From contig JAEORI010000189.1 in assembly GCA_016840965.1 (NCBI GenBank), positions 1-8,243 on the forward strand: DNA of 8,243 nucleotides. Direction: 5' to 3'. Positions 1 through 8,243 of this stretch are shown piece by piece; within the stretch, counting starts at the first letter, position 1, and every line of letters starts with the position of its first letter. A model generated the notes under the pieces. That model made no database searches, was not told where the DNA came from, and saw only the letters and a list, made by a program, of their open reading frames with translations. Origin of the DNA: Candidatus Thorarchaeota archaeon. Lineage in GTDB: Archaea > Asgardarchaeota > Thorarchaeia > Thorarchaeales > Thorarchaeaceae. The translations under genes were made by a program, and so were the position numbers.

Positions 1-39
1 CGGATGGAAATATCCCTCAAGATTTAATCTCTGTAATTT

Positions 40-127
40 GCGGAGGTTGCCAAGCCAGGTCAAAGGCGCCAGGTTGAGGGCCTGGTTCAGTAGTGATTCG
101 CGAGTTCAAATCTCGCCCTCCGCACCA
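40..127 (+). tRNA. tRNA-Leu (anticodon GAG)
   Basis: A complete class II tRNA can be folded. The acceptor stem pairs GCGGAGG (40-46) with CCTCCGC (117-123), followed by discriminator A124 and an encoded CCA (125-127). The D stem pairs GCC (49-51) with GGC (65-67), with the GG pair at 58-59. The anticodon stem is CCAGG (69-73) with CCTGG (81-85). The loop TTGAGGG gives anticodon GAG (76-78), so it reads CUC and CUU leucine codons. The long variable arm (86-99) forms a short TCA/TGA stem, as expected of tRNA-Leu. The T stem is GCGAG/CTCGC (100-104/112-116) with loop TTCAAAT. No intron is seen. A weak A/T-rich box (aaatat, 8-13) lies roughly where an archaeal TATA element would be. The gene's 3' 22 bp is repeated twice downstream, which marks it as a likely insertion target. 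Confidence 0.96.
106..127 (+). repeat. Direct repeat copy 1: 3' end of tRNA-Leu
   Basis: This is the functional copy of a 22 bp direct repeat. It starts inside the T-loop (second T) and ends exactly at the last A of CCA. Copies 2 and 3 lie at 819-840 and 1452-1473. The identity stops at both edges: the base before is T105 here but A818 and G1451 in the others, and the base after is C128 here but T in both others. A repeat confined to the T-arm/acceptor half of a tRNA gene is the usual attachment-site footprint of tRNA-targeting tyrosine recombinases, though no recombinase is seen in this window. Confidence 0.85.
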
Positions 128-789
128 CTTTTACACTTTGGATCCAAAAAACTTGGAGTTAGAAAAAGCAGACCAAGAAAACCAGATGATATGATTACCA
201 AGGTTGTCCACCTTATAAAGCTCCAAGTGTATAATCGAAGGATAAGGACAATTGAAAGGAGTATCCCAAGTTCAACAGCTAGTAGTATTGCAGAATTTCT
301 TGAGAGTTTAAACGAGTCTATTCTACTAATCGATTTCCGAAGATCAAAAGATAGAAGTTGAACTATGCTTGTGATTACAATTGCCCCCATTATTATCGCA
401 GCAACCCAATCAATCTCAACAATACTTTGTGATATTCCGAGAAAACCGATGAAGCTCACGATGGCTGTAACAAGCAGACTGATTTCTCCTATGTAGAACA
501 AATTCAACTGGTGATAGCCCACCTCAGGTTCAATCTCATTAGCCTGTTCAGATGCGGTCTGAGCTGAAAGAATGATTCCAACGAAAACTAGAATTAGTCC
601 TGGAACTGCAGCAATTACTGTGAAGAGAGGGTCAAGAGACCATATCGCTTCTCCCGGATCACCGTGATAGACATTAGTAATGAGATAGTCAAACCTAAGC
701 CCAGTTAAGACTAACCAGAAAAAGCCCCCACCAAAAATGCCGAGAGAAACCAATGCTGGTCCCAAAGGGATTCTTCTCAATTCTAACAT
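106..789 (-). CDS. Hypothetical polytopic membrane protein (unit 1)
   Basis: No family is recognised. From the ATG at 789 the product is 227 residues, almost wholly hydrophobic, with about six membrane segments (roughly residues 8-30, 54-75, 98-119, 127-147, 167-186 and 192-213). It would be a plasma-membrane protein with short loops; the longest polar loops are near 31-53, 76-97 and 148-166. GTG at 792 and TTG at 822 are alternative starts; the TTG lies partly inside repeat copy 2, so ATG or GTG is preferred. No Shine-Dalgarno is evident. A TATA-like tract (tataatata) sits only about 8-16 bp upstream of the ATG, so a leaderless start at a downstream TTG (780 or 765) is possible. The gene's stop (TGA, 108-106) and last seven codons (SGAEGEI) are the antisense of the tRNA-Leu 3' end, so it runs head-on into the tRNA gene. 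Long open frame and clear membrane pattern support it being real; expression is unproven. Confidence 0.65.
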   Translation of the reverse strand: MLELRRIPLGPALVSLGIFGGGFFWLVLTGLRFDYLITNVYHGDPGEAIWSLDPLFTVIAAVPGLILVFVGIILSAQTASEQANEIEPEVGYHQLNLFYIGEISLLVTAIVSFIGFLGISQSIVEIDWVAAIIMGAIVITSIVQLLSFDLRKSISRIDSFKLSRNSAILLAVELGILLSIVLILRLYTWSFIRWTTLVIISSGFLGLLFLTPSFLDPKCKSGAEGEI

Positions 790-818
790 CACGCATATAT
801 TATACACCTTGTGCTTAA

Positions 819-840
819 TCAAATCTCGCCCTCCGCACCA
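819..840 (+). repeat. Direct repeat copy 2: detached tRNA-Leu 3' end
   Basis: All 22 bases match tRNA positions 106-127, including the CCA. No 5' tRNA half precedes it: the bases upstream (gtgcttaa) belong to the start region of the minus-strand membrane gene. It is followed by tcctttact, a pyrimidine-rich run resembling the T-rich tract after a tRNA gene, and shares TC immediately after CCA with copy 3. It cannot form a tRNA by itself and is read as a displaced attachment-site half. Confidence 0.85.
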
Positions 841-905
841 TCCTTTACTCGTAAGACAATCCTCAAATCTATTTGTTAACTTGTTCTTAGTAGGGAAATT
901 AATTC

Positions 906-1439
906 TTGCAAGAATCTCCTATTTCTGATTCCTATGATAAACAAAGGCTCATTAGAATAATCATCCCAGTCCTTTTACTAGGTTTTGTTGCATTTGCCTC
1001 ACCAATTGCTGTCCTCATAACCACTGAAGAACCACCTCCTTTTCCACTCCCAGGTTGGGAGTCAAGTGTCACGATTTATCTTTGGGCTGCAAGATTTACT
1101 TCCGCATTCATACAAACAGAGTATGGTTTTGAAGGAGGGGTCACAAACCTTCATACAATCCCATTTATCATCATGACAGTGCTGTATTTCATAATCCATA
1201 TTGCTGTAGGCCTGAGAAGAATCCCAGCTAGATACGGTGCAGGAATTGATGTCATGGTCCTCATAGCTTGGGTAACCATCTGTCATTTGATCTATGGCAC
1301 TCTGCAAGAGTGGTCGCTAATCCAAATGCCAATAATACCAATTGTAGGAGTTGCTATTCTGTTAGTTGTATATGGTAGTCAAGTGTTTCAGCTCTCACCT
1401 ACCACACCAGCCTCTTCCTTCTATCTATCAGCATCATAG
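906..1439 (+). CDS. Hypothetical membrane protein (unit 2)
   Basis: No family is recognised. The frame starts with TTG at 906 and gives 177 residues. An AGGG at 892-895, ten bases upstream, could be the ribosome-binding site; there is no in-frame ATG until well inside the protein, so TTG is the most reasonable start. The N-terminus is short and charged, followed by a membrane segment or uncleaved signal (about 16-40), an outside-type loop rich in Pro and aromatic residues (EEPPPFPLPGW), then segments near 82-103, 110-133 and 141-161. The C-terminus is a short Ser/Pro/Thr tail. It lies alone between repeat copies 2 and 3, and its stop TAG is 12 bp before copy 3. It shows no obvious similarity to the unit 1 protein beyond being membrane-embedded. 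Confidence 0.65.
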   Translation: MQESPISDSYDKQRLIRIIIPVLLLGFVAFASPIAVLITTEEPPPFPLPGWESSVTIYLWAARFTSAFIQTEYGFEGGVTNLHTIPFIIMTVLYFIIHIAVGLRRIPARYGAGIDVMVLIAWVTICHLIYGTLQEWSLIQMPIIPIVGVAILLVVYGSQVFQLSPTTPASSFYLSAS

Positions 1440-1451
1440 TAGCTGCATCTG

Positions 1452-1473
1452 TCAAATCTCGCCTTCCGCACCA
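1452..1473 (+). repeat. Direct repeat copy 3: detached tRNA-Leu 3' end, one change
   Basis: It matches tRNA positions 106-127 at 21 of 22 bases. The single change is C118 to T1464, which in the tRNA would turn a G-C acceptor pair into G-U. CCA is followed by tcttttta, the most terminator-like T tract of the three copies, so this may be the original end of the tRNA transcription unit, displaced by later insertions. No 5' tRNA half is present. After it, a non-coding stretch of about 140 bp runs to the next gene's start at 1613. Confidence 0.83.
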
Positions 1474-1582
1474 TCTTTTTATGCAACCTGTAATTGTAGC
1501 GTCGGATTGTGTCTTCATCACTCGCGTAGCAAACAGCAAAACTGTCCCCACGCAGATAACATGCTTAGTATCTATATCATGG

Positions 1583-1612
1583 TTTAAATATTGTATACAA
1601 ATCGTATACAAA
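1583..1612 (+). promoter_or_regulatory. TATA box plus paired GTATAC operator-like element
   Basis: The TATA-like tttaaata at 1583-1590 is centred about 26 bp before ATG 1613, the spacing expected for a leaderless archaeal transcript. Between it and the ATG are two GTATAC palindromes (1593-1598 and 1604-1609) whose centres are exactly 11 bp apart, about one helical turn. The first extends to the perfect 10 bp palindrome ttgtatacaa, and both are followed by AAA. A site lying between TATA box and start would suit a dimeric repressor blocking initiation. The promoter is fairly well supported; the operator is inferred. Confidence 0.6.
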
Positions 1613-2521
1613 ATGTTGATGAATATGAGCGCGATTAATGATTTTAAATCGGGCTTATCTATGGCAAAGGGCAAGTTATTGACTTTCTTTCTTGCCATCA
1701 TAGGCATTTTTGTTGTTCTGGGATTAGTTCTTGCAGTGGTAGTTCTACCAATTGGCTTGGTTGCTTGGATGATGAATCCATCTGCTGATTTCATCACCCG
1801 GTGGACTGAAACTTTGACTGCATGGACGCTTCCATTGACATATGGTAGTGCAGAGGTGATTCTCTCCATTTCATTCTTGACGGTTATCCTACCAATCACT
1901 GCCATAGGCATCTGGGTGTTAGGTGCATTGTTTGGTATTGCAAAGGAACAGATTGATACAAACGATACTCGCGTGGAACATGCTTTCTCTTGGCTCAAGA
2001 AAAGATTTGCACCTCTGATTGGAGGCGGAATTCTTCTCTCGATAATCATTATTCTTCCCGCGTTAATTGTTGGATACATCATAAGCTGGGCATATGGATT
2101 TCAGCCAGTTCCCTATCCTATCAATTGGATTGAGGGATTCATTGGATTTGTCTACTTCTTTATCATGTTGAGCTTCTTCTCTCTCTTATGCCCCGCAATC
2201 GTTGATGGAATGAGTGCACTTGACGCCATGAGGATGTCTGTTAAGACTGTAAGAGCAAATCTGGGCAGGGTCTTTGGATTTCTACTAATATTTGTCATCA
2301 TTACCCTCATTCTCTTTGGACCTATAGCCATCTACTCTATGTATTTGGTTTCACTGGGTCTTACGCCTGACCCTTTGACAGATGTTGTCTTTGCAGCACT
2401 CACCGCATGGAGTGCCATTGGTGCGTTTATTCTTCTGATCTTTGTACTACCTGCATTAGTCTTTGGTCTCACTCTGATCTATAACTCTTTGAAGACTCAG
2501 ACTCCTGTTCAAATGAGCTAA
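1613..2521 (+). CDS. Polytopic membrane protein, DUF4013-like or similar archaeal family
   Basis: From ATG 1613 the product is 302 residues. Two further in-frame ATGs (1619, 1625) follow at once; the TATA box position favours 1613 or 1619. The frame stays open upstream to 1481, but that part covers the promoter and repeat flank and is not thought to be translated. About six or seven membrane segments are visible (near 22-53, 82-108, 135-160, 172-195, 218-246 and 258-291). Segments 2 and 3 are separated by a polar loop (110-133, with EHAFSWLKKRF). A conserved-looking stretch CPAIVDGMSALDAMRMS (193-209) before a helix resembles the pattern of archaeal DUF4013 and related GlpQ-membrane-type proteins. 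The specific function is unknown. It ends in TAA and is followed by a hairpin terminator, so it is probably monocistronic. It may be a third cargo gene of the tRNA locus, but no fourth repeat bounds it on the right. Confidence 0.8.
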   Translation: MLMNMSAINDFKSGLSMAKGKLLTFFLAIIGIFVVLGLVLAVVVLPIGLVAWMMNPSADFITRWTETLTAWTLPLTYGSAEVILSISFLTVILPITAIGIWVLGALFGIAKEQIDTNDTRVEHAFSWLKKRFAPLIGGGILLSIIIILPALIVGYIISWAYGFQPVPYPINWIEGFIGFVYFFIMLSFFSLLCPAIVDGMSALDAMRMSVKTVRANLGRVFGFLLIFVIITLILFGPIAIYSMYLVSLGLTPDPLTDVVFAALTAWSAIGAFILLIFVLPALVFGLTLIYNSLKTQTPVQMS

Positions 2522-2538
2522 TAGTGTTTACAAGACAT

Positions 2539-2577
2539 GAGCGTCGTTCCTATACGGCGCTCTTTTCTTCTTTTTTC
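2539..2577 (+). terminator. Hairpin plus T-tract terminator
   Basis: GAGCGTCG (2539-2546) pairs with CGGCGCTC (2555-2562) over eight base pairs, one of them T-G, with an 8-base loop, followed by a T-rich run (2563-2577). It begins 17 bp after the membrane gene's stop and insulates it from the predicted RNA gene downstream. Confidence 0.75.
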
Positions 2578-2610
2578 CTAGACTTCATCTAAATGGGATT
2601 TTACCGATAC

Positions 2611-2620
2611 AAAATAAAAT
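2611..2620 (+). promoter_or_regulatory. Predicted TATA box of the non-coding RNA
   Basis: The A/T-rich run aaaataaaat lies 26 bp (centre to start) upstream of G2641, where the first long hairpin begins. This is the expected archaeal TATA-to-start distance, and the preceding bases give no protein gene it could serve instead. Confidence 0.5.
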
Positions 2621-2640
2621 TCCAAAACAAGATTGTAAAA

Positions 2641-2802
2641 GGACCCACCCCAGATGCGGCGAGGCAAAATCGCATCCTTGATACAGGTGGGTCCGAGGGA
2701 GGGAGTTGTCTTCTGAAGTATAATGGGACTCGGCAAAGCATTGTGATCCAAGACGTGCATTGTATTGCGAGTCCCTGGTGGAAGGCTTGAATCTTGGATT
2801 CA
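2641..2802 (+). ncRNA. Candidate structured non-coding RNA with two hairpins and a pseudoknot
   Basis: No known RNA family is recognised. Hairpin 1: GGACCCACC (2641-2649) pairs perfectly with GGTGGGTCC (2686-2694), and inside it GATGCG (2653-2658) pairs with CGCATC (2671-2676) around a 12-base loop, leaving an asymmetric internal loop (3 and 9 bases). Hairpin 2: GGGACTCG (2725-2732) pairs with CGAGTCCC (2768-2775), extended inward by CAAaGCA (2734-2740) with TGCaTTG (2756-2762). The loop of hairpin 2 contains atccaaga (2746-2753), perfectly complementary to tcttggat (2792-2799), which would make a pseudoknot; alternatively the tail forms its own hairpin TGAATC/GATTCA (2788-2793/2797-2802). 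A G-rich linker (gagggaggga) joins the hairpins. The 3' end is uncertain and could extend to the T6 run at 2854-2859. Short open frames cross the region on both strands, but none looks like a protein. Confidence 0.55.
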
Positions 2803-2810
2803 TTCATTAA

Positions 2811-2983
2811 TACAAAGAAGTCAATATAAAATCGTCAAGAGAGCATTTGTCACTTTTTTGACCAGCACTTGCAAAATTTCTGCACATTTAATAGTGTCTT
2901 GGAACTACGGCAATGTATAAAGGCTAAGATAGCAGGGAGCAGTTTAGACGCCTTGGGAGTGGTTAAGAACGTCATCTCGAAGG
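2811..2983. other. Intergenic stretch between the RNA candidate and the oxidoreductase
   Basis: No gene is seen here. It holds an A/T-rich run (aatataaa, 2823-2830), a short gtca/tgac inverted repeat around a T6 run (2849-2862) that could end the upstream RNA, and the TATA box of the next gene at 2915-2920. The final part (from 2948) is open in the oxidoreductase frame but contains no ordinary start codon. Confidence 0.5.
2915..2920 (+). promoter_or_regulatory. TATA box of the oxidoreductase gene
   Basis: tgtataaagg contains a good archaeal TATA box. It predicts transcription starting near 2942-2945, about 40 bp before the first codon that encodes the Rossmann fold, so the message would have a short leader. 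Confidence 0.55.
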
Positions 2984-3970
2984 ATTGCAATAGTTGGAAC
3001 GGGCAACATGGGTCGAATACATGCACGTATTCTTAGTGACTTAGGAGCTTTAGTGGGCGTAGCTGATACTGATGTTGCAACTGCAGAGCAGGTAGCAAAG
3101 GAGCATAACACGATTCCGTTCAATGATTTTGAATCAATGATTGACGAAGCAAAACCAGATGGTGTTGTAATTGCTACACCAACATCAACTCATGCAAGTA
3201 TAGCCCGAACCATAGCCACAAAATATGAGGGTATCAAGGGAATCCTAATCGAAAAACCTCTAGCTAGCACGCTAAAAGATGGGAAAAAGGTTGCAGAGAT
3301 AGTAAAGAAACGAAAAATTGTAACCTTAGTTTCTCATTCGGAGATTTACAATCCAATTGTAGGGAGAGCCTTATCCCTTATTAAAACTGATGCGATCGGA
3401 AATCCTCAGACCATCATCTATGATAGACGAGGTTTTGTACAACCAGAGAGAATCCCATCGCTTGGTGATGTCTTTGAAGACCTAGGCGTGCATGACTTTG
3501 ACATTATGGCGAGAATTAGTAACGGACCTGCAAAGCTATTTGCCCAAAGTAACACCGTTGGCGGAATTCATAATAGTGGCGAGATCATGGTCAAGTTTGA
3601 TTCCGGAACTCAGCACTTTTTCCACCTCTCTAGACAGTATGCTGGACGTCGACGCTACATGGACGTTTCAGGGTCAAAGGGGACTCTTGTTCTTGACTTG
3701 TTTGGACAGATAATCAAAGTGCAGCATTTAGACCAAGCACCTGTAGCCAAGGGTGATACAATACAGCTTCCTGAGAGAGGAGCGACGATTAAGGTCTATG
3801 GTGAACCAGTACGAGAAGTGCTCAATGACTTTCTGCGATGTATCAAGACAGGTGAAACTCCAAGAGTGAGCATAGATGATGCTCTATGTGCCCTAGAGAT
3901 TGTTGAGGCTTCAAGACAGAGTGCGGAGTCAGGAGAAGTTGTGGATATCGAGATAAAGGCTAGGAGATAA
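2984..3970 (+). CDS. Gfo/Idh/MocA-family NAD(P)-dependent oxidoreductase
   Basis: This is a sugar-type dehydrogenase of the cytosol. The N-terminal Rossmann fold opens with RIAIVGTGNMGRIHA, encoded from 2981; the glycine loop GTGNMG binds NAD(P). Counting from ATG 3008, EKPLA (82-86) is the family's conserved lysine motif, and EDLGVHDFDI (157-166) carries the catalytic His162 and Asp. The C-terminal alpha/beta substrate domain ends near residue 320, a normal length. The DLGVHDFDI signature recalls archaeal UDP-GlcNAc 3-dehydrogenases, so a nucleotide-sugar substrate is plausible but unproven. The start is a problem: the first in-frame ATG (3008) falls inside the glycine loop and would delete the nucleotide-binding strand, while upstream of it the frame (open to 2948) has no ATG, GTG or TTG. 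The coordinate given uses ATT 2984 as a provisional start. It overlaps the e-MtaB gene tail-to-tail by 11 bp. Confidence 0.88.
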   Translation: MAIVGTGNMGRIHARILSDLGALVGVADTDVATAEQVAKEHNTIPFNDFESMIDEAKPDGVVIATPTSTHASIARTIATKYEGIKGILIEKPLASTLKDGKKVAEIVKKRKIVTLVSHSEIYNPIVGRALSLIKTDAIGNPQTIIYDRRGFVQPERIPSLGDVFEDLGVHDFDIMARISNGPAKLFAQSNTVGGIHNSGEIMVKFDSGTQHFFHLSRQYAGRRRYMDVSGSKGTLVLDLFGQIIKVQHLDQAPVAKGDTIQLPERGATIKVYGEPVREVLNDFLRCIKTGETPRVSIDDALCALEIVEASRQSAESGEVVDIEIKARR

Positions 3971-5249
3971 CCTTCCCATTCAGACGAGTTCGTTCTGATG
4001 ATGTAATCTCAACATCAACGATTGTTCCTGGTTTCAAATCCTTGTGAACAACAACTATCTTGTAGGATTCATTCCTTCCGAGCATGCCTCCTTTAGAACC
4101 CTTTTCGGTGATCATGATTGGACCAGACCATCCAACCCATGCTTCATTGGATTCTATAGTAATCTCATTTGCAACCTTTGTCAGAGTCCTGCTGCGGTTC
4201 TTCTTCACTGTAGTATCTACTTTTTCATTTGATTGTGAGGCAAGAGTATTAGGCCTGTCGCCGTACTTTGAGATATTGAGAACAGATGGTCTTACACTTT
4301 GAATTAATTCAATGGTTTCTTTGAAATCGGTTTCATTTTCACCCGGAAATCCAACTATGATGTCAGTAGCAATTGTTGGGTTCTTGAAACGTTTCCTGAC
4401 CCTCTCAACGATGTTCACCCAGTCACTAGCAATATACCTACGTTTCATTGTTTTCAGAATCTTATCGCTGCCAGACTGAAGGGGTATGTGAAAGAACTTG
4501 AAGAAATGGTCATCTTTCATTGACTCTAGAAGGTCATTGATTGAGCTCATCACTATATTTGGATTGAACATACCGAGGCGAAACTTGTGATTCCCTTCAA
4601 TGGTAGCTATTGACTGCAGAAGCCCAGTAAGGGTTTCACCAGTGTCACTTCCAAACACTGCAGCATCTTGAGATGTTAATCTAATCTCGCGATATCCAAG
4701 ATGCACACATCGCTCGATTATTCGATGGATGCCTGAAATGGAATAGCTTCGTACCTTTCCGCGGGCGAATTTCACAGCACAGTATGCACAACTTCCAAGG
4801 CAACCTTCACAGATAGGAATAGTACAAATTACACTATCTGGTGGTCCTGCTAACCACTTCAGTTTGTAAGCATTATCAGATTCTATTTGTCGAATTCCTC
4901 TCGCGCCATGGAGAATACGCGGAACAATCGATGCCAGTGTATCAATTGACTGAGGACCAAGCAATGCAGCATATTCTGGAATTGCTTGCTCAATCCGATT
5001 GGGGGAGATTTTTGGTAGACATCCGGTAACAATGATTGGAATATTATTCTGTCCCAATTCTTCAAGTCTATGAATGATTTTGTCCTCTGTTGGCTCCTTA
5101 ACACCACATGTATTCAATAGGATCAGCTGGGCTTCACGAATGTCATTCACCCGCTGCCCTTCAATAGCTTCAAGACGTCCTACTATGATGTCAGAGTCTG
5201 CTGTGTTTAGCGAGCACCCATACGTTTCAAGATAGTACTTGAGGACCAT
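3960..5249 (-). CDS. tRNA N6-threonylcarbamoyladenosine methylthiotransferase (e-MtaB/CDKAL1 type)
   Basis: This radical SAM enzyme converts t6A37 to ms2t6A in ANN-decoding tRNAs, using two [4Fe-4S] clusters. The 429 residues match the archaeal/eukaryotic e-MtaB length. The N-terminal methylthiotransferase domain has its three cluster cysteines at C12 (ETYGC), C48 (NTCGV) and C77 (VTGCLPK). The radical SAM motif CxxxCxxC is C150, C154 and C157, followed by the typical FARGKVRSY. The RNA-binding TRAM domain fills the last 60 or so residues. An extra cysteine, C147, sits just before the radical SAM motif. The ATG at 5249 is preceded by AGGTG (5262-5258) at 8 bp, overlapping the stop of the upstream MoaD-like gene. 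It is the last gene of the minus-strand cluster and ends in TAG. The family assignment is firm; specificity for t6A over i6A rests on the CDKAL1-like sequence. Confidence 0.93.
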   Translation of the reverse strand: MVLKYYLETYGCSLNTADSDIIVGRLEAIEGQRVNDIREAQLILLNTCGVKEPTEDKIIHRLEELGQNNIPIIVTGCLPKISPNRIEQAIPEYAALLGPQSIDTLASIVPRILHGARGIRQIESDNAYKLKWLAGPPDSVICTIPICEGCLGSCAYCAVKFARGKVRSYSISGIHRIIERCVHLGYREIRLTSQDAAVFGSDTGETLTGLLQSIATIEGNHKFRLGMFNPNIVMSSINDLLESMKDDHFFKFFHIPLQSGSDKILKTMKRRYIASDWVNIVERVRKRFKNPTIATDIIVGFPGENETDFKETIELIQSVRPSVLNISKYGDRPNTLASQSNEKVDTTVKKNRSRTLTKVANEITIESNEAWVGWSGPIMITEKGSKGGMLGRNESYKIVVVHKDLKPGTIVDVEITSSERTRLNGKVIS

Positions 5250-5257
5250 ACTCTCAA

Positions 5258-5262
5258 CACCT
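5258..5262 (-). promoter_or_regulatory. Ribosome-binding site of the methylthiotransferase gene
   Basis: AGGTG, 8 bp before ATG 5249, overlaps the TAG stop (5263-5261) of the MoaD-like gene. This supports the chosen start and suggests coupled translation of the two. Confidence 0.5.
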
Positions 5263-5554
5263 AACCGCCTTGGACATGGGGAAGAATGGCAACTTCATCT
5301 CCATCTTGAATAACTGTATCAATTCCTCCTAAGGTTTCAACATCCTTCTTGTTAAGCATCACAATCAGATTTCCACTGATAGTATCATTGTGCAATATAA
5401 GTTTCCTGAGTTCTTCGCCTCCAATCTCAACGACCCTATTGACAACTTGCCGGACTGTTGAATTGTCAGGAACCTCGATGTCTATGATTTTTTCTCTCAG
5501 AAGCCTTCGCACTGGCCCGAATGATTTGAACTTGACTTTCAAATGGTTAACCAT
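5261..5554 (-). CDS. MoaD/ThiS/SAMP-like ubiquitin-fold protein
   Basis: A small beta-grasp protein of 97 residues from ATG 5554; a TTG at 5569 would add five residues. The motif order is typical of the family: N-terminal strand KVKFKSFGPVRRLL, then TVRQVVNRVVEIGG, strand GNLIVMLNKKDVETLGG, then the closing DGDEVAILPHVQGG with a terminal Gly-Gly. In MoaD, ThiS and archaeal SAMPs that diglycine is adenylated by an E1-like enzyme and becomes a thiocarboxylate (sulfur donor) or an isopeptide (protein modifier). No E1 or molybdopterin gene is in the window, so the target is open. It lies 20 bp after the LpdD-like gene and 11 bp before the methylthiotransferase gene, a sulfur-inserting enzyme, which may be a functional link. 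No clear ribosome-binding site precedes it, consistent with translation by coupling. Confidence 0.9.
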   Translation of the reverse strand: MVNHLKVKFKSFGPVRRLLREKIIDIEVPDNSTVRQVVNRVVEIGGEELRKLILHNDTISGNLIVMLNKKDVETLGGIDTVIQDGDEVAILPHVQGG

Positions 5555-5574
5555 TGTAGTTGAAAGCAAGAGGA

Positions 5575-5946
5575 CTATTCAGCCTTTTGATAATACGAAA
5601 TGACCTCTTCCACAAGAGCATCAACGACAACGATGATCTCCTCAATCTCTTTTCGGCTGGCATTATCATAATGAATACCAACAGTGACAACAGTGGGAAT
5701 TTCTAGAGCCTTACAGATTTTTTCTGCAGATGTGTTGGCTACAACATAGTCCTTGTGTCCTGGTAGGGTGAGAGTGCTCACGCTTATGGTTGTAGCATCT
5801 CGGTAGTGGCTCTTTGTCGGATATGCTGCGGCAACACCACCAACATGGTGTTCATCACCACCATATATAGCGATTAGAAGGTCTCTACCAATCTCTTTTA
5901 CTTCAAGACTGATATTGTGCCGACCAGCCTTTCTTTCAAATATCAT
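5575..5946 (-). CDS. LpdD-like (prenylated-flavin chaperone/PAC-like) small protein
   Basis: The product is 123 residues from ATG 5946. Recognisable family motifs are GGDEHHVGGV (29-38), LPGHKD (61-66) with the following A-rich helix, and VGIHYDNAS (89-97) before a C-terminal helix. This pattern matches small proteins related to LpdD, the third gene of gallate/protocatechuate decarboxylase operons, whose fold resembles proteasome-assembly chaperones. Archaeal stand-alone members have no settled function that I know of, and no UbiD-type decarboxylase or flavin prenyltransferase lies nearby, so a role in flavin handling is not claimed. It sits 51 bp after gcvPB and 20 bp before the MoaD-like gene in one direction. 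The ATG has no clear ribosome-binding site. The frame is continuous with that of gcvPB apart from the latter's TAG. Confidence 0.75.
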   Translation of the reverse strand: MIFERKAGRHNISLEVKEIGRDLLIAIYGGDEHHVGGVAAAYPTKSHYRDATTISVSTLTLPGHKDYVVANTSAEKICKALEIPTVVTVGIHYDNASRKEIEEIIVVVDALVEEVISYYQKAE

Positions 5947-5997
5947 CGCCGTTCTGTTAGCTGAACTTGCCTCTAATATTTTTGGTGCACCACTTGC

Positions 5998-7566
5998 CTA
6001 TTCTTTGCTCTCCTCTTTCTGATGCTGCTGGAACATTCTAAATGAGAGTGTCATGGTTTTCGGATGTGCAGATCTATATTCATCCAAAAGCCCAACAGAT
6101 GTGGTATATGGTGCATTCTTCACTTTTTCAGGGTCTTCGTGAGCTTCTTTCGAGATCGTTTCAAGTGTGGAGATGAAGAAATCAAGCTCTTGGCGAGACT
6201 CTGTTTCCGTAGGTTCAATCATCAGAGCCTCAGGAACTATTAGAGGGAAATATACAGTGGGAGCGTGTACGCCAAAGTCAAGCAAACGCTTAGCCACATT
6301 CATAGCAGTGACCTCAGTCTTTTTCTTCAGCTCTTCAGCTGAGATGACGCATTCATGCATCCTAGGGGCATCTTGGGAATATGGTAGAGTGAATCCTGGT
6401 ATATTACGCACGTGATGAGCAACATAATTAGCGTTGAGCACTGCTACCTCAGACGCTCGTTCAAGACCTTCAGCACCCAAGGCATAGATATACGCATAAG
6501 CACGAATTAACACGCCAAAGTTACCATAGAAGCTTTTGACCTTCCCAATTGATCGTGGATAGTCATAGTCCAAGTTAAAAGTGCCATTTTCCTTCTTCAC
6601 AACACGTGGGATTGGGAGAAAATCAATCAACTTCTTAGTGACACCAACCGGACCAGCTCCTGGTCCTCCTCCACCATGTGGTGTTGAGAATGATTTGTGA
6701 AGGTTCAAGTGAACGACATCAAAGCCCATATCACCTGGTCTAACCTTGCCCATTATCGCATTGAAGTTAGCACCATCATAATATACCAGTCCACCAGCAT
6801 CATGCACAATATCTGTGATCTCTTCGATGTCTTTCTCAAAGACACCTATTGTGTTAGGGTTGGTGAGCATAAGACCAGCAGTCTTTGAACCAACAACCTC
6901 CTTCAAAGCGTCTAAATCTACTAGCCCTTCCTTACTTGAGGGGATTACAACTACTTTGTATCCAGCCATTGCGGCTGACGCAGGATTTGTGCCATGCGCA
7001 GCATCTGGAATGAGCATCTCAGTTCGCTGTTCACAGTTTTCTGTGAAACAACGATGAAACTCACGTATCATCATGACACCAGTCCATTCACCCTGAGCTC
7101 CTGCAGCAGGCTGAAGGGTGACAGCATCCATTCCAGTTATCTCACCAAGCCATCTCTCCAACTCCCACATCATCTCAAGAGCACCTTGAGCCATAGAGGT
7201 GTCTTGAAGCGGATGCAACCAGGCAAAACCAGCTGTACTGGCAGCCCAATTGTTTTCAGCGGGATTATATTTCATTGTACAGCTACCTAATGGATAGGTG
7301 CCAAGGTTCACTGCAAAATTCATCTGGGAGAGCCGAGTATAATGACGAGCAATCCCAGGTTCTGAAACCTCTGGTATTCTTGGTGGTTCCTTTCGGACCA
7401 TCTTATTTGGGATAACATCTTTAATGCTGCCAACGACTTTTCTTACGTCAGGCTCGGGGGTTGGGAAAACATGTCCCACGATTCCAGGCATGGATCTTTC
7501 AAAAATTAGTGGTTCAATCCATTTTGCTTGGCGTACTTTGGTATCATCAAGTCTGTGAAACTTCAT
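5998..7566 (-). CDS. gcvPB: Glycine dehydrogenase (decarboxylating) subunit 2
   Basis: This PLP-binding subunit of the P-protein decarboxylates glycine and transfers the aminomethyl group to lipoyl-GcvH in the glycine cleavage system. From ATG 7566 there are 522 residues, usual for the two-subunit form. Landmarks are NLGTYPLGSCTMKYNP (87-102), QPAAGAQGEW (152-161), HGTNPASA (191-198), the cofactor region DGANFNA (264-270), and HLNLHKSFSTPHGGGGPG (286-303) with PLP-lysine K291. The frame is open 29 codons further upstream, but ATG 7566 is favoured: it overlaps the gcvPA stop as ATGA and has a strong ribosome-binding site. It forms a heterotetramer with GcvPA. No gcvH or gcvT is in the window. 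It ends in TAG. Confidence 0.97.
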   Translation of the reverse strand: MKFHRLDDTKVRQAKWIEPLIFERSMPGIVGHVFPTPEPDVRKVVGSIKDVIPNKMVRKEPPRIPEVSEPGIARHYTRLSQMNFAVNLGTYPLGSCTMKYNPAENNWAASTAGFAWLHPLQDTSMAQGALEMMWELERWLGEITGMDAVTLQPAAGAQGEWTGVMMIREFHRCFTENCEQRTEMLIPDAAHGTNPASAAMAGYKVVVIPSSKEGLVDLDALKEVVGSKTAGLMLTNPNTIGVFEKDIEEITDIVHDAGGLVYYDGANFNAIMGKVRPGDMGFDVVHLNLHKSFSTPHGGGGPGAGPVGVTKKLIDFLPIPRVVKKENGTFNLDYDYPRSIGKVKSFYGNFGVLIRAYAYIYALGAEGLERASEVAVLNANYVAHHVRNIPGFTLPYSQDAPRMHECVISAEELKKKTEVTAMNVAKRLLDFGVHAPTVYFPLIVPEALMIEPTETESRQELDFFISTLETISKEAHEDPEKVKNAPYTTSVGLLDEYRSAHPKTMTLSFRMFQQHQKEESKE

Positions 7567-8243
7567 TGTGCACCACCTCCATCTGACACAATATGTTCCA
7601 CAGCTTGTATCAATTCGTCGATGTTTTCTTTGCTGTGTATCTCTGTCACGCAAAATAACATTGATTCTCCTAGTGCGGGGAACTCTTCAGTGAGAATTCT
7701 TCCGCCATGGATACCTCTCTCAAGAAGACCTTCATGTACATCTTTGGCTGTGACTCCGTTTTCAAATCGGACTACAAACTCTTTCCAGATTGATTCTCCA
7801 ATGGCAGGTGCTTTTACCCTTGGAATTTTGTTAAGCATCCTAGCAGTATAATTAGCGTTATAGGTAATGGTTTCTCCCACTTGTTTCAAACCAGTTGGAC
7901 CAAGAAGTGACATGTAGATTGTCGCAGTTACAGCAGCAAGCGCTTGGTTGGAACAGATGTTGCTCGTAGCTTTTTCTCGACGGATGTGTTGCTCTCTGGG
8001 ACTTAATGTCAATACGAATCCATCTTCATAGGGCTCTTTTTCTGTTCTTGTCATTCCGACTAATCTGCCAGGCATCTGGTAGATGAGTTTACGATCACTT
8101 GTACAACCAAAAATACCAAGCAGAGGACCTCCAAATGTCATAGGAGACCCTAGGTGTTGACCTTCTGCGACAACGATGTCTGCGCCGTAGTTTCCGGGAG
8201 GTCGTATGAGTCCTAAAGACAAGACATCGACTCCAGCCACCAG
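7563..8243 (-). CDS. gcvPA: Glycine dehydrogenase (decarboxylating) subunit 1, C-terminal half
   Basis: The partner subunit of the P-protein heterotetramer, in the same PLP fold but without the cofactor lysine. The gene runs off the right edge of the window; the visible 226 residues are roughly the C-terminal half of a protein normally near 450. Characteristic segments are GADIVVAEGQHLG, then the FGGPLLGIFG stretch, MPGRLVGMT, SPREQHIRREKATSNICSNQ and LGPTGLKQVGE. All these are standard for GcvPA, and no residue breaks are seen. Its TGA stop (7565-7563) overlaps the gcvPB ATG (7566-7564) as ATGA. A GTG at 8240 is an internal valine, not a start. The promoter of the cluster must lie outside the window or further upstream. 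Confidence 0.96.
   Translation of the reverse strand: MVAGVDVLSLGLIRPPGNYGADIVVAEGQHLGSPMTFGGPLLGIFGCTSDRKLIYQMPGRLVGMTRTEKEPYEDGFVLTLSPREQHIRREKATSNICSNQALAAVTATIYMSLLGPTGLKQVGETITYNANYTARMLNKIPRVKAPAIGESIWKEFVVRFENGVTAKDVHEGLLERGIHGGRILTEEFPALGESMLFCVTEIHSKENIDELIQAVEHIVSDGGGAQ
7573..7580 (-). promoter_or_regulatory. Shine-Dalgarno sequence of gcvPB
   Basis: GGAGGTGG (read on the minus strand) lies 6 bp before ATG 7566 and matches the archaeal anti-SD well. It lies within the last codons of gcvPA and encodes part of its Gly-Gly-Gly tail. It decides the gcvPB start and indicates translational coupling of the two subunits. Confidence 0.8.

Follow-up and report, generated by a model that had tools for sequence, protein, structure and literature searches.

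The sites of archaeal tyrosine integrases are described as lying at the 3' ends of transfer RNA (tRNA) genes, where an insertion restores the tRNA and leaves the displaced 3' end as a direct repeat, the 5' limit of the site being variable (PMC8371274; this and the other papers cited by PMC number are drawn on in part). The smallest thaumarchaeal cryptic integrated element, of 2.6 kb, still encodes an integrase (PMC6563490), partial tRNA genes are known as integration scars (PMC9897764), and, among Asgard archaea, Heimdallarchaea have elements at tRNA genes (PMC8813620). The locus considered here lies in a stretch of 8,243 nucleotides from a Candidatus Thorarchaeota archaeon (NCBI GenBank assembly GCA_016840965.1, contig JAEORI010000189.1, positions 1 to 8,243, forward strand), the whole of which is referred to as the window. 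In it, a tRNA-Leu(GAG) gene is followed by detached copies of its last 22 bases (the 22-mer), which bound two short units with one main gene each. These units, and others like them behind many tRNA genes of the same class, are probably (at about 0.68) integrase-less, tRNA-targeted cassettes that are moved in trans by a presumed recombinase. Like the tRNA-targeted integrative elements of the SSV, pNOB8 and pT26-2 types and the thaumarchaeal cryptic ones, they display a direct repeat of the tRNA 3' end, an intact tRNA and precise empty and filled sites; unlike them, they have a median length of ~0.7 kb, hold mostly one gene and showed no recognised integrase in the 42 cargo proteins scanned. Tycheposons are tRNA-anchored cargo islands as well, but they are larger and carry tyrosine recombinases.

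Arrays of mostly single-gene cassettes between short recombination sites are a feature shared with integrons and CALINs. However, the site is here a tRNA 3' end, the anchor is a tRNA instead of attI/intI, and the largest open reading frame (ORF) is oriented with the tRNA in 40 units and against it in 37. The palindromic attC sites have a GTTRRRY core, which was present in 0 of the 89 right ends catalogued below (30 nt plus the 22-mer scanned for the core motif alone), and the integron model was rejected. Archaeal integrons, with their attC sites, are reported to be enriched in Asgard archaea and are mostly CALINs, the cassettes of which can be excised or captured by exogenous integrases (PMC9668308). 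Some casposons target tRNA 3' ends too, and the casposase of A. boonei is reported to recognise TCAAATC (PMC6614799). In Caldiarchaeum, a tRNA-Thr gene is disrupted by an element of 1.8 kb with a predicted recombinase and a 5' tRNA fragment (PMC3293823); as far as this description goes, both cases concern mobile DNA at an archaeal tRNA gene that is tied to tRNA fragments and introns, whereas many cargo units and 3' fragments are involved here. No title or abstract in the literature searched, which covered few subscription journals and no separate bioRxiv set, described such cassettes in Thorarchaeota. As such, integration targeted to tRNA genes is already known; it is the integrase-free, mostly one-gene, genome-wide cassette form that was without a match in the literature compared.

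The tRNA-Leu(GAG) array of the window

The array and its surroundings consist of the following features:

40-127, + strand: tRNA-Leu(GAG), the sole tRNA of the window, intact, with encoded CCA, anchor of the array (ARAGORN; Rfam RF00005 at 40-124, 50.7 bits)
106-127, + strand: proposed attachment-half sequence within the functional tRNA gene, T55-A76, 22 nt
106-822, - strand: main ORF of unit 1, 238 aa, predicted membrane protein, no Pfam family above cut-off
128-818: unit 1 (cassette 1), from the first base past CCA to the last base ahead of the next T55
819-840, + strand: first detached tRNA 3' end, exact copy
841-1451: unit 2 (cassette 2)
906-1439, + strand: main ORF of unit 2, 177 aa, predicted membrane protein, no Pfam family
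1452-1473, + strand: second detached tRNA 3' end, one change
1474-2613: possible older third unit with a DUF7847 gene (ORF 1481-2521, + strand)
2614-8243: conserved chromosomal flank, syntenic in close relatives, with a GFO/IDH/MocA oxidoreductase by Pfam

The 22-mer, TCAAATCTCGCCCTCCGCACCA, occurred exactly at 106-127 and 819-840 and with one change at 1452-1473, always on the + strand, confirming the threefold, equally oriented repeat of the tRNA-Leu(GAG) end that had been reported in an initial annotation of this DNA. It was not reproduced by chance, as 200 dinucleotide-preserving shuffles of the window gave zero matches at up to 3 mismatches, and the top match in 200 cruder shuffles reached at most 16 of the 22 positions. 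The detached copies of the window matched no Rfam family at its cut-off. The intervals of 713 and 633 bp, each said to hold one membrane-protein gene, were also correct in spacing; each contained one main ORF with several hydrophobic segments, besides shorter overlapping ORFs. What had been overlooked is that the gene of unit 1 extends into the tRNA, its final six codons and stop (GAEGEI-stop) being the antisense of the tRNA 3' end at 106-127.

Homologues of both genes were found at more than one tRNA-Leu isoacceptor (L and G numbers denote individual loci and the genomes compared, respectively). L017 and L006 each had a homologue of unit 1 at their tRNA-Leu(GAG). In G033, the homologue of L231 directly followed a tRNA-Leu gene whose anticodon, read by eye, is TAG, and a decayed 3' end lay 730 bp further. 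A tail resembling GAEGEI was retained in L231 (GAEGEI) and L233 (GGKGEI); in L232 and L230, which lie beside decayed 22-mers, the protein tail continues, and it is different in L234, the sixth homologue, found in G018 without a nearby 22-mer. Homologues of unit 2 occurred at tRNA-Leu(GAG) and tRNA-Leu(CAG), the one behind tRNA-Leu(CAG) in L024 displaying 46% identity. Identities of the family members ranged from 45 to 98% for unit 1 and from 49 to 88% for unit 2, and the organism names, where listed, were all Thorarchaeota. Searches for unit 1 in phages and for unit 2 in plasmids gave no match, nor did one for the exact 22-mer in viral contigs.

Empty and filled loci, and units behind other tRNA genes

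The conserved neighbour ORF at 3960-5249 allowed the recovery of 17 loci, most of them labelled as Candidatus Thorarchaeota, with a best protein identity of 93%. The locus was empty in six genomes (L012, L051, L011, L015, L013 and L053), where 155-478 bp lay between the tRNA and the oxidoreductase gene and a search allowing 3 mismatches found no detached 22-mer; such a 22-mer was likewise absent from the gaps of 998 and 1664 bp in L008 and L009. The corresponding distance is 2881 bp in the window, and in the filled loci L002 (2487 bp), L003 (1609 bp), L005 (3305 bp), L006 (6815 bp) and L017 (5070 bp) the gap was occupied by differing units with differing counts of detached 22-mers. The initial annotation had held that the same genes in the same order in all relatives would speak against its view; instead, empty and alternative versions were found. 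In addition, L001, which is 89.6% identical to the window across a 5.6-kb flank, contained an additional unit of 241 bp exactly between units 1 and 2, the two 22-mers flanking it being the counterparts of the single 22-mer at window position 819. Read from the two sequences, this is a clean filled/empty pair and a precise gain or loss. At the same junction, L017 had an unrelated stretch of ~0.57 kb that by eye resembles a decayed acetyltransferase gene; a common origin of both insertions was tested and was unsupported. Furthermore, a ~510-bp unit with a gene for a CxxCxxCC-domain protein (PF03692) occurred in five genomes at varied positions of the stack. Its copies could be aligned over the stretch between CCA and the following 22-mer, and most of the flanking sequence was unrelated. 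Loci of distant relatives of this protein were checked in other genomes as well, and as most of these genomes had no 22-mer near the gene, the family is not confined to cassettes.

The DUF7847 stretch (1474-2613) may represent an older third unit, because L001 had no match to positions 1487-2613 of the window; a distal repeat was not recognisable within the window, where the best candidate, near 2500-2660, matched 10 of 22 positions only. The flank further contains genes that are taken, from the authors' own reading of the sequence, to encode a methylthiotransferase and a glycine cleavage protein. One metagenome-assembled genome, G001, held two versions of the locus (L001 and L006, 93% and 78% identical to ORF 3960-5249), and is therefore probably a mixture of two organisms.

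A search for the 22-mer in 227 genomes of the phylum, 47 of which belong to the class, recovered it exactly in 44 of the 47 and in 0 of the 180 others (the tRNA-Leu of those 180 genomes itself being outside the scope). In the regions fetched, detached ends lay behind tRNA-Leu genes with the anticodons GAG, TAG and CAG. For tRNA genes other than these, each tRNA's own last 22 bases were sought at up to 3 mismatches within 6 kb downstream, or less at contig ends. A same-strand downstream copy was present for 6 of the 25 tRNA genes tested in G010, 6/29 in G003, 4/19 in G033 and 4/33 in G016, or 20/106 in total, compared with 0/52 in the control genome G025 of the same class (Fisher p = 2.2e-4). 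Copies on the opposite strand numbered zero in the four test genomes and one, with 2 mismatches, in G025. Four neighbouring complete tRNA genes (two in G003, one in G016 and one in G025) were removed from the raw matches, and 3-mismatch matches made up two of the four copies kept in G016 and one of those in G003. The genes tested compare with at least 30 (G010), at least 31 (G003), at least 21 (G033), 34 (G016) and at least 59 (G025) Rfam tRNA matches, the lists of G010, G033, G003 and G025 being possibly short, as no more than 150 first-look candidates were scored there; the tested sets exclude weak or uncovered matches and the tRNA-Leu genes fetched beforehand, of which there were seven (G010, three; G003 and G033, two each). 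Types not named by ARAGORN were read from the anticodon by eye. The initial annotation had suggested looking for other tRNA genes followed by detached 3' ends and short cargo; these were encountered at Leu isoacceptors and many other types, so that its scope had been too narrow.

A catalogue of 89 units bounded by local tRNA 3' ends, at Leu and many other types, was assembled; it stands at 88 since the 152-bp unit of L108 turned out to be a neighbouring tRNA-Val gene. Among the 89, the median length was ~700 bp and the longest unit measured 4516 bp, and 66 contained exactly one ORF of at least 90 aa, compared with none in 12. Tips of tRNA-Leu type bounded 62 units, a share that is inflated by the search design, and 28 of these began directly at a tRNA with its 5' part in view, the others beginning at a detached copy or lying on contigs that end short. 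Homology at E <= 1e-4 linked 35 pairs of units, 31 at the same tRNA type and four at differing types. The strong case among the latter is a two-gene unit (a B12-binding/octopine-dehydrogenase-type pair) behind tRNA-Tyr in G003 and a probable tRNA-Ser in G016, with 69% identity in the first gene and repeats that match the local tRNA at each site; the other three pairs are weak, belonging to one repetitive family with 25-38% identity.

Three further observations concern individual stacks. Behind tRNA-Thr(GGT) (anticodon by eye), L195 of G033 had two adjacent units whose products are paralogues (50% identical) of that of the single unit in L132 of G003, so that a unit was apparently duplicated within the stack of L195. 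A TFIIB-family gene was the cargo behind two tRNA-Tyr genes of G003 (L130 and L137; 90% identity). Finally, contig C26 of G025 (L170) contained 19 Rfam tRNA matches with atypical 3' ends on 26 kb, and is perhaps viral or misbinned.

The cargo was scanned for 42 proteins with Pfam (a subset of the cargo ORFs that includes both window proteins), and for 10 each with PADLOC and PHROGs. Pfam and PADLOC assigned acetyltransferase, thioesterase, SSB-like OB, hydrolase, cupin, DUF2284, TFIIB, methyltransferase, Imm5-like, Cas12f1-like TNB, Mrr, JAB and GajA/OLD-like functions, and many proteins were without a family. No integrase or recombinase family was recognised in any of these three sets. The nearest cases were a Cas12f1-like TNB match in L023 and a match to an HNH-endonuclease PHROG over helix-turn-helix (HTH) repeats in L041, behind tRNA-Thr. 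The GajA/OLD-like ATPase belongs to a 9-kb stack with six tRNA-Leu-type 3' ends (L034; G033, contig C124) and is possibly defence cargo.

Unit edges and recombinase genes

The block shared by tRNAs and detached copies ends at A76 and begins at T55 or further 5'. To the right of A76, unit ends were no more alike than shuffled partners (4.23 versus 4.13 matches in 10; 85 of 300 shuffles reached the observed value). The left edge was variable, as 24 of the 89 copies extended at least 4 nt past T55 into the T-stem, V-arm or anticodon arm, compared with ~0.4 expected from interior positions, each copy being compared with the arm of its own tRNA (with a single consensus arm for Leu). Terminal inverted repeats were not found, the mean longest inverted match being 4.67 versus 4.71 in shuffled pairs. 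Divergence of the detached copies increased distally (33 concordant versus 13 discordant pairs in 21 arrays, weak matches of up to 6 mismatches included; permutation p = 0.0086), and 36 of the 59 copies recovered at up to 2 mismatches were identical to tRNA-Leu ends. Unit starts were pyrimidine-rich (79% in the first 12 nt), but this was set aside as an end motif, a tRNA trailer being the simplest reading. Similarly, the A/G57 switch seen when a detached copy is compared with the tRNA was discarded as proof of unit-borne ends, since tRNA drift or gene conversion would look identical. Concerning the tRNA genes themselves, introns in the T-arm (53/54) and V-arm of tRNA-Leu (L008, L009, L036 and L106) coincided by eye with breakpoints of detached copies, and the 3' half of a T-arm intron stood ahead of a detached copy in L036 (6613-7558), the intron itself being present within the tRNA of L106 (near 9105). 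In L041 (10400-10510; G031), a tRNA-Leu gene with a seemingly interrupted T-arm, followed by ATAAATCTCGCC, possibly has a T-arm intron or is broken.

The initial annotation had also called for a tyrosine recombinase to be sought. Recombinase profiles, which may miss divergent members and were run on mostly possibly incomplete genomes, detected PF00589 in 18, PF00239 in 14, PF01867 in 11 and the archaeal integrase PF16795 in 0 of the 47 class genomes. Eight tRNA-Leu array genomes (G001, G002, G003, G004, G006, G010, G032 and G035) were devoid of all four families, as was G016, a single contig of 3.16 Mb with detached ends at other tRNAs. As regards an intI-type integrase, PF00589 (a general profile, not specific for intI, applied to metagenome-assembled genomes that may be incomplete) was missing from these nine genomes and present in 11 other array genomes. 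When 19 tRNA-Leu array genomes were compared with the remaining 28 (an author-chosen set rather than an independent phylogenetic sample, with G020, holding L023, excluded as ambiguous), PF00589 was commoner in the former (11/19 versus 7/28, p = 0.034), a distribution with which a tyrosine recombinase as helper is compatible. Cas1 (PF01867) was detected in 0/19 of them versus 11/28 of the remainder (Fisher p = 0.0014, without a correction for common ancestry). The sole ARAGORN tRNA call at the PF00589 loci (L091) was rejected as it looks false, without the usual tRNA 3' end.

Proposed mechanism and competing explanations

The favoured cassette model has an observed basis in the detached ends and their boundaries, the presence or absence of units, their alternative orders, the homologous units at different tRNA-Leu isoacceptors and the distal decay. 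A unit would be a minimal integrative element without an integrase, its attachment site consisting of a copy of the 3' part of the tRNA, from A76 back to at least T55. A recombinase acting in trans would exchange strands at the T-loop or immediately 5' of it, upon which the tRNA would regain its wholeness by taking the 3' end of the unit, and the former 3' end would be displaced downstream as a detached copy; both the enzyme and its chemistry are presumed. Repeated events at one tRNA would yield a stack with the younger units closer to the tRNA, recombination between two copies would remove a unit precisely, and the free form of a unit may be circular. A target duplication of fixed length accounts for the edges less well than such site-specific integration, in which the unit brings the tRNA end. 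Conservative integration is favoured because the variable 5' limit and the included tRNA 3' end match the archaeal integrase sites as far as these are described (PMC8371274). Of the cassette view in the initial annotation, the tRNA-derived attachment half of each unit and the empty and alternative versions hold up; movement by an integrase in trans is conjectural, and no recombinase was recognised in the scanned cargo.

Several results weigh against this model. None of the four recombinase families was consistently present in the array genomes, PF00589 being found in only 18 of 47, and 0 of the 33 loci fetched above the PF00589 cut-off had a tRNA 3' end from the library (37, then 36 22-mers, at up to 3 mismatches, with many contigs short). 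The difference between L001 and the window is internal to the array instead of adjoining the tRNA, the 13 discordant pairs contradict an age order, and the unit at 6538-7051 of L002, a single exception, keeps 17 nt of identity past A76. Moreover, the two-gene unit with local repeats behind tRNA-Tyr and the probable tRNA-Ser is not predicted by a fixed, isotype-specific attachment site.

This last unit would fit a duplicative insertion, in which an integrase or transposase (Cas1/casposase-like or other) cuts any tRNA in a staggered manner, at T54/T55 and behind A76, takes in linear DNA and duplicates ~22 bp of the target, as in CRISPR spacer capture. Indeed, detached copies resemble their own tRNA across many types, the CTCTGC variant of the L046 tRNA recurs in its detached copies, the right edge is sharp at A76, and the TCAAATC that the casposase is reported to recognise (PMC6614799) is the T-loop motif. 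Duplication is the more economical account of the local repeats across types and of the sharp right edge, and it is retained as a competing model, although it is unlikely on the whole. The left edge, not being fixed in 24 of 89 cases, disfavours a duplication of 22 bp, Cas1 was undetected in all 19 tRNA-Leu array genomes and terminal inverted repeats were lacking. The duplication made by the casposase, as described, is 14-15 bp long and starts 8 bp downstream of TCAAATC, a mismatch with T55-A76 (PMC6614799), and the casposon model as such was rejected on the same three grounds. In addition, some detached copies (Asp and Gly) hold the allele of the intact tRNAs of relatives, from which the present tRNA differs, although a later change of the tRNA would look alike.

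Even less probable is that the units are mere relics of integrase-bearing elements that were inserted serially long ago and were reduced to one immobile gene each. The decayed repeats and merged intervals of L006 and L017 would agree with this, as would the several array genomes without a detectable recombinase of the four families. However, more than half of the detached tRNA-Leu copies (36/59) are still exact, and several genomes share clean units that hold a single gene, are alike in size and have their ORFs and edges intact. Furthermore, no integrase was recognised in the 42 cargo proteins and no library tRNA 3' end at the 33 integrase loci, and it is unlikely that decay would so often have spared, each time independently, one gene and both edges. 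The idea that the repeats are functional RNA parts (split-tRNA pieces, alternative 3' exons or processing signals) instead of attachment sites is very improbable. It would draw on the tRNA-Leu introns that by eye share the 53/54 and V-arm breakpoints, and on the half intron in L036; yet an intact tRNA gene, which split tRNAs (halves with complementary leaders) lack, heads the array of the window and many others (28 of the 62 Leu units start at a tRNA with its 5' part in view), the detached ends decay with distance, their presence and cargo differ among relatives at one locus, and Rfam recognised no family in the detached copies of the window.

Beyond the cassette model itself, it is conceivable, though rather doubtful, that any tRNA gene is an entry platform, with T55-A76 as a universal site and a recombinase of an undescribed family acting in trans, and that gene capture is genome-wide in Thorarchaeia. 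If true, this would be an integron-like Asgard system without intI or attC, and possibly the source of its tRNA introns. The long-standing proposal that links the introns and breakpoints of archaeal tRNAs to the integration of mobile elements could be tested directly on the arrays. Among known prokaryotes, Asgard archaea are the nearest relatives of eukaryotes. Chromosome-wide, tRNA-bounded cassettes would document, in readable form, the genes that these archaea gained recently, and point to a recombinase to be found.

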